Shown here piece by piece: positions 19,287 to 25,440 of a DNA stretch of 64,000 nt. Within the stretch, counting starts at the first letter, position 1. The number at the start of each line of letters is the position of its first letter. Origin of the DNA: Litorivicinus sp. (GTDB taxonomy: Bacteria; Pseudomonadota; Gammaproteobacteria; Pseudomonadales; Litorivicinaceae); contig JAOLBK010000003.1 of assembly GCA_028339155.1 (NCBI GenBank), forward strand, positions 62,001-126,000, in the 5' to 3' direction. A model generated the notes under the pieces. The model ran no database searches. It was not told the DNA's origin and saw only the letters and a list, made by a program, of their open reading frames with translations. The position numbers and the translations under genes were made by a program.

Positions 19287-19664
19287 ATGAGGCTAATCAG
19301 ATTTTTACTTGGTCGTATCATTTTGTTGGTTGATTTTCTTTCCAGGCCAAAACCTGCGGTTCGTGAAAAGAAGGACCAGGATATAGTTGATCGAATGACG
19401 TCGGGGATGTCGCTTTATCAATTTAATGCGTGCCCTTTTTGTGTGAAGGTCCGGCGGCATATGCGTAAAAGATCATTGAATATTGAATTAAAGGATGCGA
19501 AAAATGACATTGACATTAAGAATGAATTAGTTGAATACGGCGGAAAGCACAAGGTTCCGTGTCTTCGGATTCAGACAGATTCTGAAAACATTAAATGGCT
19601 ATACTCATCTGACGATATCTGCGCTTTTTTAGACTTAGAATTGGATCGACTGAAAAGCGTCTAG
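19287..19664 (+). CDS. Membrane-anchored glutaredoxin-like protein
   Basis: The 125-residue product has a hydrophobic N-terminal segment (RFLLGRIILLVDFLS), then a thioredoxin-fold domain with a dithiol CPFC motif (CPFCVKVRRHMRKR), the cis-proline region KVPCLRI and a C-terminal helix. This matches glutaredoxin / GST-N-terminal-like proteins found in many gammaproteobacteria. Substrate unknown. It is expected to sit on the inner membrane with the redox domain probably cytoplasmic. A GAGG ribosome site precedes it, and it may be cotranscribed with glmS, 69 bp upstream. Confidence 0.8.
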   Translation: MRLIRFLLGRIILLVDFLSRPKPAVREKKDQDIVDRMTSGMSLYQFNACPFCVKVRRHMRKRSLNIELKDAKNDIDIKNELVEYGGKHKVPCLRIQTDSENIKWLYSSDDICAFLDLELDRLKSV

Positions 19665-19853
19665 TGTCCAAAACAGTGCTGCCTTAGCAATTCGAATTTG
19701 GTGCTTTTAAGTAAGCTGGTCCCAAGTTTCAGTCGTAATGAATGAGCTCATTTCGTATAATCAGTTAGTTAACGGTTTGTTAAAGCATGATGCCTTTTTT
19801 ACTGGTAAGATTTTTTGATGACACCAACGTTTTTTTCTCTATTGGTTTGCACT
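19665..19853. other. Convergent intergenic gap with an orphan TATAAT
   Basis: This 189 bp lies between the glutaredoxin-like gene and the oppositely oriented FAD/Fe-S dehydrogenase gene. It contains a perfect -10-like TATAAT at 19756-19761 (+) without a clear -35, followed by a small GCAT-G-ATGC hairpin and six T at about 19789-19803. No ORF or clear terminator for either flanking gene is visible. Confidence 0.3.
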
Positions 19854-22800
19854 TTAAGCATTAGATAAGTAGTCAGCTAAAAATACCGCCACGTGCTCAG
19901 CATGGCGCGGTGTCCCGTCAGCAATTTGATGTCGACAACTGATTCCATCAGCGATAATTCGAGTATCTGGCATTGCTGTTCGAATTGCTGGGAGTAAAGA
20001 GAGCTCCGCCATTGCTTTTGATGTATTTAGGGTTTCTTTTTGGTATCCAAAATGCCCAGCCATACCGCAGCAAGAGGACTGGATTAACTCGACCTCGATA
20101 CCAGGAATTCGTTTCAAGAGTGCTTCTACACTCCCCATTATGCCAGCTGCTTTTTGGTGACAATGACCATGTATCAATACTTTTTGTGGGGCTGTATTTT
20201 TAACATTTAGTGAGCACCGTCCCTCCGAAAGTTCTCTTTCTAAAAACTCTTCGAACATTAGGGCATTGTTTGCTAGTGCTTCACTATCTGATCCGGGAAG
20301 TAACGCCAGAAATTCGTCACGTAAAGTCAACAAACAAGAGGGTTCAAGTCCGACAACTGGGATGCCCTGTCGGATCCACGGCGCGATGGTTTCAATAAAT
20401 CGAGAGGCCTCTCTTCGCGCTTCATCGATCAGCCCAGCGGCGAGAAAGGTTCTGCCGCAGCATAACGGTCTATTGTCGGAGCTAGGCTTAGCTTCAATCA
20501 CCTCATAGCCAAGGTATTCAAGAACGTATCGAGCGGCATAGAGGTTATCTGGCTCGAAGGATCGGTTAAAGGTATCACCAAGCAATACGACCGTAGGTTT
20601 ATCGGTCGTTTTATCAGAGTGGGGTGCCCGATATTTTTTTGCCCAGACTGGGAGCGGCCGATCTTTAGTAAGACCTATCACTTTTTCTGTGACCCACGCC
20701 AAACCGGGAATCTGATCTCTTAAGTTCGCAAGCCAGCGGACATAACTGAAGAAGGGAGCGTATACGGGCAGATAAGCTATTAAGCGATCTCGAAGTGAAA
20801 GGTTATATTTTTTGCTCCGCTGATAGAGCACTTCTGTTTTCATTTTAGCCATATCAACGCCGGTAGGGCATTCGTTTTGGCATGCCTTGCATCCAATGCA
20901 AAGCTTCATAGTTTCCACCATCGCATCGGATACAAGAGCGTCAGAGCCAAGCTGCCCAGACAATGCAAGTCTGAGGGTGTTAGCTCGGCCGCGTACTAAA
21001 TCTTTTTCATCGCGAGTCACTCGATAGGATGGACACATGACGCCAGGATCTGTTTTTCGACAAGCGCCATTGTTATTACACATTTCGACTGCTTGACTTA
21101 GGCTACCCCAGTTAGACCAGTCAAAACCGGTTTCAAATGTACTTTGTCTTTTGATCTCTTTTTCGTATTCTGGATGGTAGCGAAATAAATTCGGGTCATC
21201 ATGACGTGGAGGGTCTACTATTTTATTGGGATTAAATAGACCGTTTGGATCTAAAATCTTTTTAACTTTCTCAAACAGAGTCACCACGTCATTGCCAAAC
21301 ATAACTCTGTGAAATTCGGATCTCGCTATTCCGTCACCATGCTCACCTGAGTGTGACCCTTTATATTCACGCACTATAGTAAATGCCTCTTCGGCAACGG
21401 CTCGCAATACTTTTGCGTCAAGATCTTTCTTAAGATTTAAAATGGGCCGAACGTGTAACGTACCAACGGAAGCGTGGGCATACCATGTGCCCGTTGTGCC
21501 GTATTTAGTAAATACTTCGGTGAGTCTTCGGGTGTATTCCGCAAGATCTTTTAATGGAACAGCGCAATCTTCAACGATCGAAATGGGCTTGGCGTCGCTG
21601 CGCATGGACATCATAATATTAAGGCCCTGTTTTCTTACCTCCCATATTGCTTTTTGAAATACGGGATCTTCCGCTCGAATTACTGAATCGTCTTGTCCAA
21701 GATCGGCCATCATTACTTGCAGTTGATCCAACTTACGCGCATTTTCCCCAGGACTTTCTTCACAAAATTCTACGAGCAAGATGGCGTCTGGATTGCCGCG
21801 CACGAACTGGTCGACGGTTTTCGAAAACATTGGGATGTCTCGAGATAACTCAATCATTGTTCGATCAACAAGCTCGACCGCGCTTGGTCCCAGTGTCACG
21901 ATGTGTTGGGTTAAATCCATCGCCTTATAGAAGCTGTTGAAGTGACAAATCCCAAGAGTTTTGTGTTGAGGAACTGGAGAGAGCTTCAAATGAATTCGTT
22001 TAAAAAACCCGAGTGTCCCTTCGCTCCCAATAAATAAATGGGATGGGTTACATTGTGTGCCTGGCCAGCAGCCAGATCCGCCCTTCCCATCGGGAATGAG
22101 TGCATCAAGATTGTATCCTCCAACCCGGCGCATCAACTGCGGGAACCGATCAGAGATTAGATCTTTGTGGAGGGCGCCTAAATGAAGCAGTTGGCCTAAT
22201 AAATCAGTCCGAATATTGAGCTGTTGTACCGAGAGTGTCTGTTCATGCTTATCCAACGGTTTCCAGTTAGCCATTGACCCGTCGGCGAGTAACATTTCTA
22301 CACGGTTAACGTTGTCGCGCATTGTGCCGTAACGAATTGAGCGAGAACCACAGCTGTTGTTCCCGGACATTCCACCAATGGTTGCCCGACTACTTGTCGA
22401 GACGTCAACCGGGTACCAGAGACCACTTGCTTTTATTTTTGCATTTAAATGGTCTAAAACCAGGCCTGGTTGGACTTCACATATTTGACTTTCAGAGTCA
22501 AAAGACACTAATTTATTTAAGTATTTGGAGCAGTCCACTACAAGAGAGCGATTAATTGCTTGACCATTTTGCGATGTTCCACCCCCTCGACCAGTGATTG
22601 CTATTTCAAATTCTTTGGCGATTTCAAGTACGGCAGAAACATCTTCTTCTGTTTTTGGAATTACTACACCGACAGGAAACATCTGATAGTGACTAGCATC
22701 CGTTGCGTAGCGCCCGCGATCGAATTGTTCGAATCGAATTTCACACGCAGTTTCTGAGGCTAGCCGTTTTTTTAAAGCACTTTGAATTGATTCATTGAGC

Positions 22801-22859
22801 TCAAGTGTTCTTAAGTGCGGCTCCATTAAATCTGGAGCAGGGAAAACAATGGGGGTCAT
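19854..22859 (-). CDS. FAD-linked 2-hydroxyacid dehydrogenase fused to Fe-S (CCG) electron-transfer domains
   Basis: The 1001-residue protein joins a GlcD/Dld-type FAD-binding half (PKTEEDVSAVLEIAKE, GRGGGTSQNGQA, TIGGMSGNNSCGSRS, HSGEHGDG near residue 510) to a C-terminal Fe-S half (CIGCKACQNECPTGVD, CCGRTFLAAG, HGHCHQKA, CCGMAGHFG). This architecture oxidises D-2-hydroxyacids (glycolate, D-lactate or D-2-hydroxyglutarate) and passes electrons to the quinone pool; the substrate is not readable from sequence. The start was set at 22859, where homology begins; an in-frame ATG at 22934 would invade the divergent promoter region. The divergent glyoxylate-type aminotransferase favours glycolate, as an inference. 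Confidence 0.85.
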   Translation of the reverse strand: MTPIVFPAPDLMEPHLRTLELNESIQSALKKRLASETACEIRFEQFDRGRYATDASHYQMFPVGVVIPKTEEDVSAVLEIAKEFEIAITGRGGGTSQNGQAINRSLVVDCSKYLNKLVSFDSESQICEVQPGLVLDHLNAKIKASGLWYPVDVSTSSRATIGGMSGNNSCGSRSIRYGTMRDNVNRVEMLLADGSMANWKPLDKHEQTLSVQQLNIRTDLLGQLLHLGALHKDLISDRFPQLMRRVGGYNLDALIPDGKGGSGCWPGTQCNPSHLFIGSEGTLGFFKRIHLKLSPVPQHKTLGICHFNSFYKAMDLTQHIVTLGPSAVELVDRTMIELSRDIPMFSKTVDQFVRGNPDAILLVEFCEESPGENARKLDQLQVMMADLGQDDSVIRAEDPVFQKAIWEVRKQGLNIMMSMRSDAKPISIVEDCAVPLKDLAEYTRRLTEVFTKYGTTGTWYAHASVGTLHVRPILNLKKDLDAKVLRAVAEEAFTIVREYKGSHSGEHGDGIARSEFHRVMFGNDVVTLFEKVKKILDPNGLFNPNKIVDPPRHDDPNLFRYHPEYEKEIKRQSTFETGFDWSNWGSLSQAVEMCNNNGACRKTDPGVMCPSYRVTRDEKDLVRGRANTLRLALSGQLGSDALVSDAMVETMKLCIGCKACQNECPTGVDMAKMKTEVLYQRSKKYNLSLRDRLIAYLPVYAPFFSYVRWLANLRDQIPGLAWVTEKVIGLTKDRPLPVWAKKYRAPHSDKTTDKPTVVLLGDTFNRSFEPDNLYAARYVLEYLGYEVIEAKPSSDNRPLCCGRTFLAAGLIDEARREASRFIETIAPWIRQGIPVVGLEPSCLLTLRDEFLALLPGSDSEALANNALMFEEFLERELSEGRCSLNVKNTAPQKVLIHGHCHQKAAGIMGSVEALLKRIPGIEVELIQSSCCGMAGHFGYQKETLNTSKAMAELSLLPAIRTAMPDTRIIADGISCRHQIADGTPRHAEHVAVFLADYLSNA

Positions 22860-22888
22860 GATCTTCTTCTTTTTTGTGCATACAAAGT

Positions 22889-22902
22889 ACCATATGTATG
22901 GT
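22889..22902. promoter_or_regulatory. Candidate operator: 6-2-6 inverted repeat between divergent genes
   Basis: ACCATA-TG-TATGGT is a perfect inverted repeat centred in the 119 bp gap between the dehydrogenase and aminotransferase genes. Its position 30 bp upstream of the dehydrogenase start suggests a dimeric repressor site, for example of a GntR-type regulator. No regulator gene is adjacent, so the binding protein is unknown. Confidence 0.4.
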
Positions 22903-22978
22903 GAAGAGGTTTCGGTTACGCCTGCAATGGCCAATTTTAAGATCAGTAACCCATTAAGATACTTAAAAGGACTTCATA

Positions 22979-24142
22979 ATGACCTACCGGGCTGGCCGAC
23001 ACTTCCTTCAAATACCTGGGCCAAGCACAGTACCCGATCGTATTTCACGAGCTATTGATTCGGCTGTTGTTGACCATCGTGGGCCAGGCTTCGCTGATTT
23101 AGGACTTTCTGTTCTTAAGGGGATGAAGCGAATATTTAAGACAGATTCACCCGTAGTGATTTATCCATCATCAGGAACGGGCGCCTGGGAAGCGGCGCTG
23201 TCTAATATTTTGAAACCTGGTGATCATGTGATTTTTTATGAGACAGGTGAGTTTGCGACGCTTTGGAAAAAAATGGCAGATCGGCTAGGAATTGTCACTG
23301 AATTTTTAGAAAGCGATTGGGGTCATAGTATTGATGCCAACCGTATTGAGGAGCGTTTGCGTTCGGATGCGAAGCGGGTAATTCGTGCGGTCTGTTGTGT
23401 TCATCATGAGACTAGCTGTGGTGTCACTTCAGATATCGCGGCTGTTCGTGCGGCGATCAATATTACAGGCCATCCAGCATTACTTTTAGTAGACAGTGTT
23501 TCGGGCTTGGGTTCTGTGGATTATTGCCATGATGCTTGGGGCGCTGACGTAACTGTTGCGGGCTCCCAGAAAGGACTGATGATGCCCCCAGGTCTTGGTT
23601 TTAATGCCTTGTCAGAGCGCGCTATTGAAGCTTCTAAAGTGGGTGGCTCACCCAGATCATATTGGGATTGGCAAGAAATGTTGTCAGCCAATGCCAGCGG
23701 ATATTTTCCTTATACACCAGCAACTACGCTTCTTTATGGATTGAAAGAGGCTATTTCTATGCTTGAGGAAGAGGGGTTGGAAAACGTTTTTTATAGGCAT
23801 CAGCGTTTGGCCGATGCATGTCGCGCAGCTGTTGCTACTTGGGATCTTGAGACAGTGTGTAAAAATCCTGCGCAGCAGTCCAATGTATTGACGGGGCTTC
23901 TGATGCCTGATGGAGTCGATGCAGATGCCGTTCGAAAGATTATTTTGGATAAATTTGATATGTCACTTGGGACGGGTCTCGGAAAGCTAAAAGGGCGCGC
24001 TTTTCGGATTGGCCACTTGGGTGATTTCAACGAACTCATGCTTATGGGCACACTGAGTGGTGTGGAAATGGGTTTGGGCCTGGCTGGTGTTCCGCACCAG
24101 TCGGGAGGTATAGAAGCTGCGATGCAGATTCTGAAGCAATAA
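22979..24142 (+). CDS. PLP-dependent class V aminotransferase, serine/alanine-glyoxylate type
   Basis: The 387 residues match the serine-glyoxylate / alanine-glyoxylate aminotransferase family: N-terminal IPGPSTVP substrate loop, HRGPGF, the SSGTGAWEAAL phosphate-binding stretch, LLVDSVSGLG with the cofactor aspartate, and the PLP lysine Lys198 in VAGSQKGLMMPPGLGF. Members transfer an amino group from serine or alanine to glyoxylate, giving glycine. AAAGGA precedes the ATG. It diverges from the hydroxyacid dehydrogenase and is followed by a TRAP transporter scar, so it probably belonged to an uptake-and-oxidation locus for a small hydroxyacid. Confidence 0.85.
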   Translation: MTYRAGRHFLQIPGPSTVPDRISRAIDSAVVDHRGPGFADLGLSVLKGMKRIFKTDSPVVIYPSSGTGAWEAALSNILKPGDHVIFYETGEFATLWKKMADRLGIVTEFLESDWGHSIDANRIEERLRSDAKRVIRAVCCVHHETSCGVTSDIAAVRAAINITGHPALLLVDSVSGLGSVDYCHDAWGADVTVAGSQKGLMMPPGLGFNALSERAIEASKVGGSPRSYWDWQEMLSANASGYFPYTPATTLLYGLKEAISMLEEEGLENVFYRHQRLADACRAAVATWDLETVCKNPAQQSNVLTGLLMPDGVDADAVRKIILDKFDMSLGTGLGKLKGRAFRIGHLGDFNELMLMGTLSGVEMGLGLAGVPHQSGGIEAAMQILKQ

Positions 24143-24190: not shown

Positions 24191-24352
24191 ATGAGATTTC
24201 GTTCTCTCTCGACATCACTAGTTGTGGTTTCAGCCATGACAGCAGGGTGTGCCATGGCAGCTGATGTCAAATTAATATTTGGCCACGTTGGAAAGCCAGG
24301 CTCCTTATTTGAAGCCAGTGTTAATGCATATGATACAAGGTGCAGGGATTGA
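24191..24352 (+). pseudogene. dctP remnant: first ~47 codons of a TRAP solute-binding protein
   Basis: A GAGG ribosome site and ATG open a 53-codon frame beginning MRFRSLSTSLVVVSAM, a signal peptide with an AMAAD cleavage region, then VKLIFGHVGKPGSLFEASVN, the standard start of mature DctP-family binding proteins. The family normally has about 330 residues. Here the homology stops near 24325-24335 and the frame ends at TGA (24350-24352) inside DNA that encodes the end of DctM in another frame. It is the 5' side of a deletion junction. Confidence 0.85.
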
Positions 24353-24578
24353 TCCGATCCATTTTGGGTTGGTGGTAACCTTGAACTTAGCGTTGGGCCA
24401 GCAAACGCCGCCGGTTACAAGCGTGTTGATTACTGCCTGCGCGGTAGCTAGAGCGAATATATGGGAGGTATCAAAAATAAATATTTACTTTATTGCGGTA
24501 CTCTTTGCTGTTTTGATGCTTTGTACTTATGTTCCAAGCGTCCCAATGTATTTGGTTGACGTGATTTATAGGTCATAG
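24330..24578 (+). pseudogene. dctM remnant: last ~80 codons of a TRAP large permease subunit
   Basis: In the +1 frame relative to the dctP remnant, the DNA encodes GAGIDPIHFGLVVTLNLALG, QQTPPVTSVL and a final hydrophobic helix ending CTYVPSVPMYLVDVIYRS. This is the recognisable C-terminus of DctM (GIDP-HFG, N-x2-LG-x-TPP). DctM is normally about 430 residues, so roughly 350 codons of dctM, all of dctQ and most of dctP are missing. No start of its own is credible. Confidence 0.85.
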
Positions 24579-24581
24579 AAG

Positions 24582-25349
24582 TTGGTAGATTACGTTACGA
24601 CAAATACTGATGGGATTGCGGAATTCAGGCTAAACCGACCTAAATCGCGAAACTCTCTTACATTTGAAATGTATCAAGCACTTGAGGATCTTTGTCAGGT
24701 TCCGCCAACAGGCACAGGGGCGATTGTCCTAACCGCGGAGGGTGAGAAAGCGTTCGCCTCAGGAACTGATATATCCAAGTTTAGGGAATTTCATTCAACC
24801 CAGGATGCGATTGAATATGAGGCTATGATTGGCCGAGTGATACAGGCGGTTGAACAATCACCTGTTCCTGTCATTGCCTCGTTGCATGGTGTTGTTGCGG
24901 GCGGGGGCGCCGCTATCGCTGCCGCTGCTGACATTCGTCTTTCAACACCGGATATCCGTTTTGGGATGCCAATGGCCCGTACGCTTGGTAATTGTCTGTC
25001 GGTTGCAAACCTCAATAGATTGGTTCGATTGCTTGGTGAATCTCGTGTACGTTATTTACTTTTAACGGCAAATTTTATTGAGATTGATTCACTGATAGTG
25101 AGCGGTTTTATTTCAGAGGTCCTACCTGATGTGATTTCCTGCGATCAGCAAGCAAGAGCTTTAGCCTCTCATCTAATGACCCTCGCACCGAGAACTATAT
25201 CTACAACTCGTGAAGGGCTGAGACGATTGGCTGGCCAAGTTCTTCCAGAGGATGAGGATCTGATCACCCACTGTTATTTGAGCCAAGATTTTGCTGAAGG
25301 TATTGATGCTTTTTTTGCCAAGCGAAAAGCTAAGTGGAGCGGCCAGTGA
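24582..25349 (+). CDS. Crotonase-fold (enoyl-CoA hydratase/isomerase family) protein lacking both catalytic glutamates
   Basis: The 255-residue product has the crotonase core: substrate loop ASGTDISKF (residues 59-67) and oxyanion-hole stretch GVVAGGGAAIAAAADIRL. Where hydratases carry Glu144 and Glu164 it has Ala111 and Met131 (GMPMARTLG). It therefore keeps the CoA and oxyanion sites but probably does not hydrate enoyl-CoA by the usual mechanism. The start is a TTG three bases after the dctM-remnant stop, which suggests it was the last gene of the former aminotransferase-TRAP operon. Reaction unknown. Confidence 0.8.
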   Translation: MVDYVTTNTDGIAEFRLNRPKSRNSLTFEMYQALEDLCQVPPTGTGAIVLTAEGEKAFASGTDISKFREFHSTQDAIEYEAMIGRVIQAVEQSPVPVIASLHGVVAGGGAAIAAAADIRLSTPDIRFGMPMARTLGNCLSVANLNRLVRLLGESRVRYLLLTANFIEIDSLIVSGFISEVLPDVISCDQQARALASHLMTLAPRTISTTREGLRRLAGQVLPEDEDLITHCYLSQDFAEGIDAFFAKRKAKWSGQ

Positions 25350-25440
25350 TTCGCCAGCGCTCGTCCAATGTGCGTGAGAAACTCCAAAAGAGATTTGGAT
25401 AGATCACGGTTGTCTTAATGCTTTATCAATCGCGTGGAGA

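Follow-up and report, generated by a model that had tools for sequence, protein, structure and literature searches.

The closest described systems to the present locus are the DctPQM clusters of HIMB30 and LSUCC0096, two genomes assigned to the group OM252 (PMC8269220). As set out in the text of that study, the genomes of OM252 differ by gene deletions, such as those of coxMSL and proteorhodopsin in LSUCC0096, whose absences have conserved flanks, lie away from contig ends and were judged by the authors to be likely true deletions (PMC8269220). The main text of the same paper contains no word starting with "trap" or "tripartite", and no paper was retrieved by a literature search for at least four of five gene terms of the cluster.

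The window, i.e., the whole stretch of 64,000 nucleotides analysed here, belongs to the genus of HIMB30, LSUCC0096 (OM252) and the Litoricola single cells. The assembly behind it has 1.88 Mb in 34 contigs and is 88% complete. Flanking genes, gene order, orientation, the start of dctP and the end of dctM are as in the HIMB30 and LSUCC0096 clusters, but the window lacks about 2.48 kb of dctP-dctQ-dctM, and also the CoA-transferase and the GntR regulator. We interpret the first of these absences as very probably the trace of a recent, spontaneous deletion of ~2.48 kb in a conserved uptake-and-catabolism cluster, which left a dctP-dctM scar. Deletion pseudogenes generally consist of two truncated genes that meet out of frame at a short-homology junction, and this pattern is likewise found in the window. 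The OM252 deletions, as described in the text of PMC8269220, resemble the window in the loss of a gene block between conserved flanks; there, however, the genes are absent, whereas in the window the junction lies inside two genes and both stumps are left.

The intact cluster in related genomes

In HIMB30 (locus L045) the intact order is GntR and FAD-linked oxidase (both on the minus strand), followed by aminotransferase, dctP, dctQ, dctM, crotonase and class III CoA-transferase (plus strand) and by livM (minus strand). An intact aminotransferase-dctPQM-crotonase cluster, as the sequence-only reading had expected in relatives, is present on a single contig in 11 of the 21 other genomes of the genus (G001, G003, G005, G009, G010, G012, G013, G015, G017, G018 and G019), with contig ends cutting the outermost genes of this stretch in G010, G012 and G015. 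Seven further congeners (G002, G004, G006, G008, G011, G014 and G021) possess a partial cluster broken off at contig ends; these agree with the intact order as far as they go, although such partial data do not prove that the cluster is intact in them. An aminotransferase ortholog was found on no contig of G002 (96% complete) or G008 (82% complete), nor in G020 or G016 (the latter 56% complete), and a close dctM tail was not found in G004, G006 and G021 (60-68% complete).

Two congeners display deviating arrangements. One contig of G007 (L160:1-1292) carries the end of an aminotransferase (61% identity) directly before a crotonase (48%), without transporter or CoA-transferase. It may stem from a different lineage or a contaminant, or reflect a second loss, and G007 was left uncounted as a transporter loss. 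In G013, ~2.3 kb of extra DNA (L145:3685-5990) lie between oxidase and aminotransferase, which are ~120 bp apart in HIMB30.

Outside the genus, the order aminotransferase, DctP, DctQ, DctM, crotonase and CaiB-type CoA-transferase also occurs in four (L089, L095, L096 and L103; L095 with ~2 kb between DctQ and DctM) of 73 loci around related aminotransferases, drawn from the best 80 of 396 relatives. This gene order is therefore not special to the genus. The closest PDB entries to the DctP of HIMB30 are 4nq8, 4p9k/4pak, 9bhf, 9bh3, the sialic-acid binder 4mmp, 4pdh and others, of which several presumably carry pantoate or D-erythronate. We assign no substrate to the transporter.

The scar and its junction

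The sequence-only reading had described a dctP head joined to a dctM tail at 24191-24578, and both halves find their counterparts in HIMB30. Residues 1-56 of its DctP match positions 24191-24358 of the window (57%, E 1.4e-11, tblastn), and residues 341-427 of the 427 residues of its DctM match the 3' remnant (87%, E 1.6e-44, tblastn; Table 1). The dctP remnant comprises ~23 codons of signal peptide, as judged by eye, and 24 codons of the mature protein. Its frame begins with a signal-peptide-like start at the ATG at 24191, continues with ADVKLIFGHVGKPGSLFEASVNAY and, after six foreign residues, ends at the TGA at 24350-24352; on its own, the resulting piece of 53 residues matches nothing in Pfam or NCBIfam up to E 1. 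The frame of the dctM remnant ends in MYLVDVIYRS and a stop codon at 24578, and covers positions 336-412 of the 413 positions of Pfam DctM (E 8.8e-15). Shortly before the junction, the dctM frame contains two ATG codons, at 24324 and 24330, and the open frame of 84 codons that they provide might be translated.

Table 1. Features of the locus, with positions in the window
Feature	Position	Strand	Evidence
Site of the GntR/FCD regulator gene in relatives, downstream of the FAD-linked oxidase; absent here	19665..19853	-	comparison with relatives
FAD-linked oxidase / Fe-S protein (YdiJ-like 2-hydroxyacid dehydrogenase type), divergent, retained	19854..22934	-	Pfam FAD_binding_4, FAD-oxidase_C, Fer4_8
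Class V aminotransferase, retained, full length	22979..24142	+	Pfam Aminotran_5, E 1.3e-24
5' remnant of dctP, 47 codons	24191..24332	+	homology to DctP of relatives
Deletion junction	24331..24332	+	blastn ends in relatives; bases TG attributable to either side
3' remnant of dctM, last 81 codons and stop	24333..24578	+	Pfam, tblastn, codon alignment
Crotonase-fold protein (enoyl-CoA hydratase/isomerase), retained, full length	24582..25349	+	Pfam ECH_1, E 2.4e-32
Site of the class III (CaiB-type) CoA-transferase gene in relatives; absent here	25350..25440	+	comparison with relatives

Order and orientation of the two stumps are as in the 11 relatives with a one-contig cluster, and their arrangement is thus not due to chance. 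Complete DctP, DctQ and DctM are absent: DctP is cut after ~47 codons, DctM is reduced to its last 81 codons, and DctQ has no match within the 64-kb window. Likewise, no other ortholog of DctP (best other match 33%) or DctM (best other match to its tail 34%) was found in the own assembly, although an intact copy of the transporter may formally exist elsewhere, given a genome 88% complete.

The breakpoint, previously placed near 24325-24345, is delimited by the ends of DNA homology (blastn). On the left, homology stops at 24332 in seven of the eight relatives aligned there, and at 24342 in G003; on the right, it starts at 24331 (five relatives) or 24333 (seven) in 12 of 14 relatives, at 24320 in G018 and at 24345 in G012. 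With the sequence of nine relatives as a proxy for the lost DNA, the missing length is 2472-2483 bp (~2.48 kb), in good agreement with the predicted 2.5-3 kb. Short direct repeats, for which the sequence-only reading proposed a look near the junction, do not account for it. Read by eye in the nine relatives, microhomology at the join is 0-2 bp in register: the bases TG are common in G009, G018, G019 and G003, one base is in G010 and none in G001, G005 and G013, while G017 has an N at the junction position. No common word longer than 7 bp was found near both breakpoints in these relatives (60 bp windows either side, with a shift of 3 on the left), which makes an assembly collapse on a repeat unlikely. 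The nearest relatives share only ~72% DNA identity over the aminotransferase and 79% in the scar, so that the base-level position of the breakpoint is derived from diverged sequence.

The deletion would have taken dctQ as a whole, the rest of dctP beyond its 5' remnant and four fifths of dctM from the 5' end, and the break was probably sealed by end joining or slippage with the aid of 0-2 bp of microhomology. The scar should no longer give rise to a binding protein or a permease. Uptake of the substrate of the cluster via the TRAP system would thereby be lost, while transcription presumably still passes the scar into the crotonase gene. This reading is based on the homology observed left and right of the junction, the junction itself, the order and strand of the stumps, the absence of other DctP and DctM orthologs and the undecayed dctM remnant.

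Losses beyond the transporter and the genes that remain

The locus had been proposed as a loss-of-uptake variant. This holds for the loss of the transporter but not for uptake as its whole extent: more than uptake was lost, because the CoA-transferase and the regulator are gone too. Every congener whose contig extends past a crotonase of >60% identity (14 genomes) has the CoA-transferase gene after it, a place that is taken by livM in the window. A search for a CoA-transferase remnant in the gap after the crotonase gave only chance-level matches (E 4), and the own genome has no ortholog elsewhere (best other match 39%). All 12 congeners in which the oxidase is uncut by contig ends have GntR next to it (identity of 45% in G006 and at least 68.7% in the others). 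GntR has no match in the window and a best other match of 32% in the own genome. A glutaredoxin-like gene (19287-19664) adjoins the oxidase in place of GntR. Neither of these two losses left a datable remnant. In the history that we propose, a cluster of seven genes plus regulator would have shrunk in the same lineage to three genes, those for flavin oxidase, aminotransferase and crotonase.

The aminotransferase and crotonase genes flanking the scar are both full length, as had been suggested. The aminotransferase is 77-82% identical to that of 14 congeners (full or nearly full matches) and, as judged from its sequence, is a class V enzyme of a kind neighbouring BhcA, the L-aspartate-glyoxylate aminotransferase, against which it scores 421.4 bits, below the NCBIfam cut-off of 650. 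A label of the cluster as beta-hydroxyaspartate cycle was prompted by this score and dropped, the score being under the cut-off. The crotonase passes NCBIfam PRK06144 (296.6 bits against a cut-off of 272). The oxidase, likewise full length, is 73% identical to its HIMB30 ortholog over residues 20-996 of 999, with the true start probably inside the listed open reading frame; the HIMB30 ortholog reaches 515 bits against NCBIfam YdiJ, under the cut-off of 1350.

No sign of relaxed constraint was found on the branch of the window in oxidase, aminotransferase, crotonase or LivM. This branch was the foreground of the omega tests; G006, G007, G016 and G020 stood outside the tree, and taxa with partial genes or N were excluded, some being omitted in the case of the oxidase to shorten the computation. 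Omega is 0.050 against a background of 0.048 in the aminotransferase (12 of 16 taxa), 0.022 against 0.072 in the crotonase (2 delta lnL 4.9; 13 of 16), 0.015 against 0.037 in LivM (9.9; 11 of 15) and 0.024 against 0.054 in the oxidase (4.4; 8 of 13). These values are rough, because synonymous change is saturated and a control branch, G003, shifts too (LivM 0.004, 2 delta lnL 7.0; crotonase 0.159, 2.5; aminotransferase 0.031, 1.5). An unconstrained phase costs 0.5 log units in the aminotransferase and 1.4 in the crotonase at 0.02 changes per codon, and 3.6 and 4.1, respectively, at 0.05; a short phase without constraint may have occurred in either gene. Saturation, the shifting control branch and the young age of the scar mean that a still-working core is not proven.

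Such a core can nevertheless exist alone, since three loci outside the genus (L051, L055 and L057) possess oxidase, aminotransferase and crotonase without a match to transporter or CoA-transferase in the stretch examined. Other uptake routes are conceivable, because about ten further genes of the DctM type are present in the own genome (12 matches, of which one is the scar and two are halves of one frame) and branched-chain-type ABC transporter genes adjoin the cluster. Among the DctM-type genes, a frame of 556 residues (G000:C12:144516-146060; L009, L011) has its Pfam match split in two, which suggests an extra stretch inside this permease; relatives have DctM-type frames of 541-554 residues.

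Age of the probable loss and alternative explanations

The dctM remnant of 81 codons has no stop and two private residues compared with 15 relatives, from which it differs in 52-69 of 243 bases but only 4-10 residues; omega of the stretch is ~0.007. In a codon model, the final part of the window branch was freed from constraint with stops disallowed, which makes the bound on unconstrained time conservative. The model is best at the smallest unconstrained time tried, and its likelihood falls once any is allowed. At 0.03 changes per codon, equal to 0.034 synonymous substitutions per site, the cost is 1.86 log units, and at 0.056 synonymous substitutions per site 3.96, which places the 1.92-unit bound near 0.035 and bears out the earlier suggestion of a recent loss. 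The constrained part of the branch is ~2.6 and saturated. Judged by these sequence data, the loss of the transporter would be very recent, polymorphic or a chimera; the lack of decay in the remnant agrees with a chimeric molecule or a minor strain variant as well as with a very recent loss.

An assembly or amplification chimera, in which the real genome keeps dctPQM and the contig joins places 2.48 kb apart, predicts exactly the undecayed remnant observed, and the sequence across the junction matches only the own genome among the 22 genomes of the genus (own genome included). We nonetheless consider it improbable, as the nine relatives offer no repeat to collapse on, the window has no N bases at the junction or elsewhere, and the absence of two further cluster genes fits a real erosion of the locus. 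It is somewhat more plausible, if still on the unlikely side, that the scar is real and carried by part of the population. This polymorphism is a sub-case of the recent deletion, with which its probability overlaps, and in these data it looks the same as a fixed recent loss; it agrees with the recency bound of the codon model, and variants could mix if the assembly is a population sample.

That the two short frames are working small genes, one for a secreted peptide and one for a small membrane protein, instead of debris, appears very improbable. Both frames are open, ATG codons precede the junction in the dctM frame and the remnant is conserved, but a recent loss explains this conservation. 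Moreover, most of the permease is missing from a DctM tail of 81 residues, and the same tail is part of a frame of 404-455 residues in the 15 relatives with a close match (81-88% identity), except in G002 (180 residues, cut by the contig end). A transporter-free form of the cluster, inherited without ever having been complete here, has parallels in the aminotransferase-crotonase pairs of L051, L055, L057 and the G007 contig. It is hardly credible, however, as the start of dctP and the end of dctM are still in place and are 57% and 87% identical, respectively, to those of HIMB30.

Under the preferred explanation of a recent deletion, a stepwise stripping of the cluster to a three-gene core, kept for a substrate made inside the cell, is put forward only tentatively, and we regard it as rather doubtful. 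The three loci outside the genus have the same three genes without this transporter or CoA-transferase, so that uptake, activation and regulation would, if the reading is true, be removable modules. As far as sequence can tell, the event is a genuine and ordinary gene loss, and it leaves the general view of gene loss unchanged. It provides a well-bounded and roughly dated case in which a marine bacterium of small genome size would have discarded an uptake system, and intact sister clusters are available for comparison. The scar would represent a natural knock-out of the transporter, and indicates that a short DctM-like frame can be debris.
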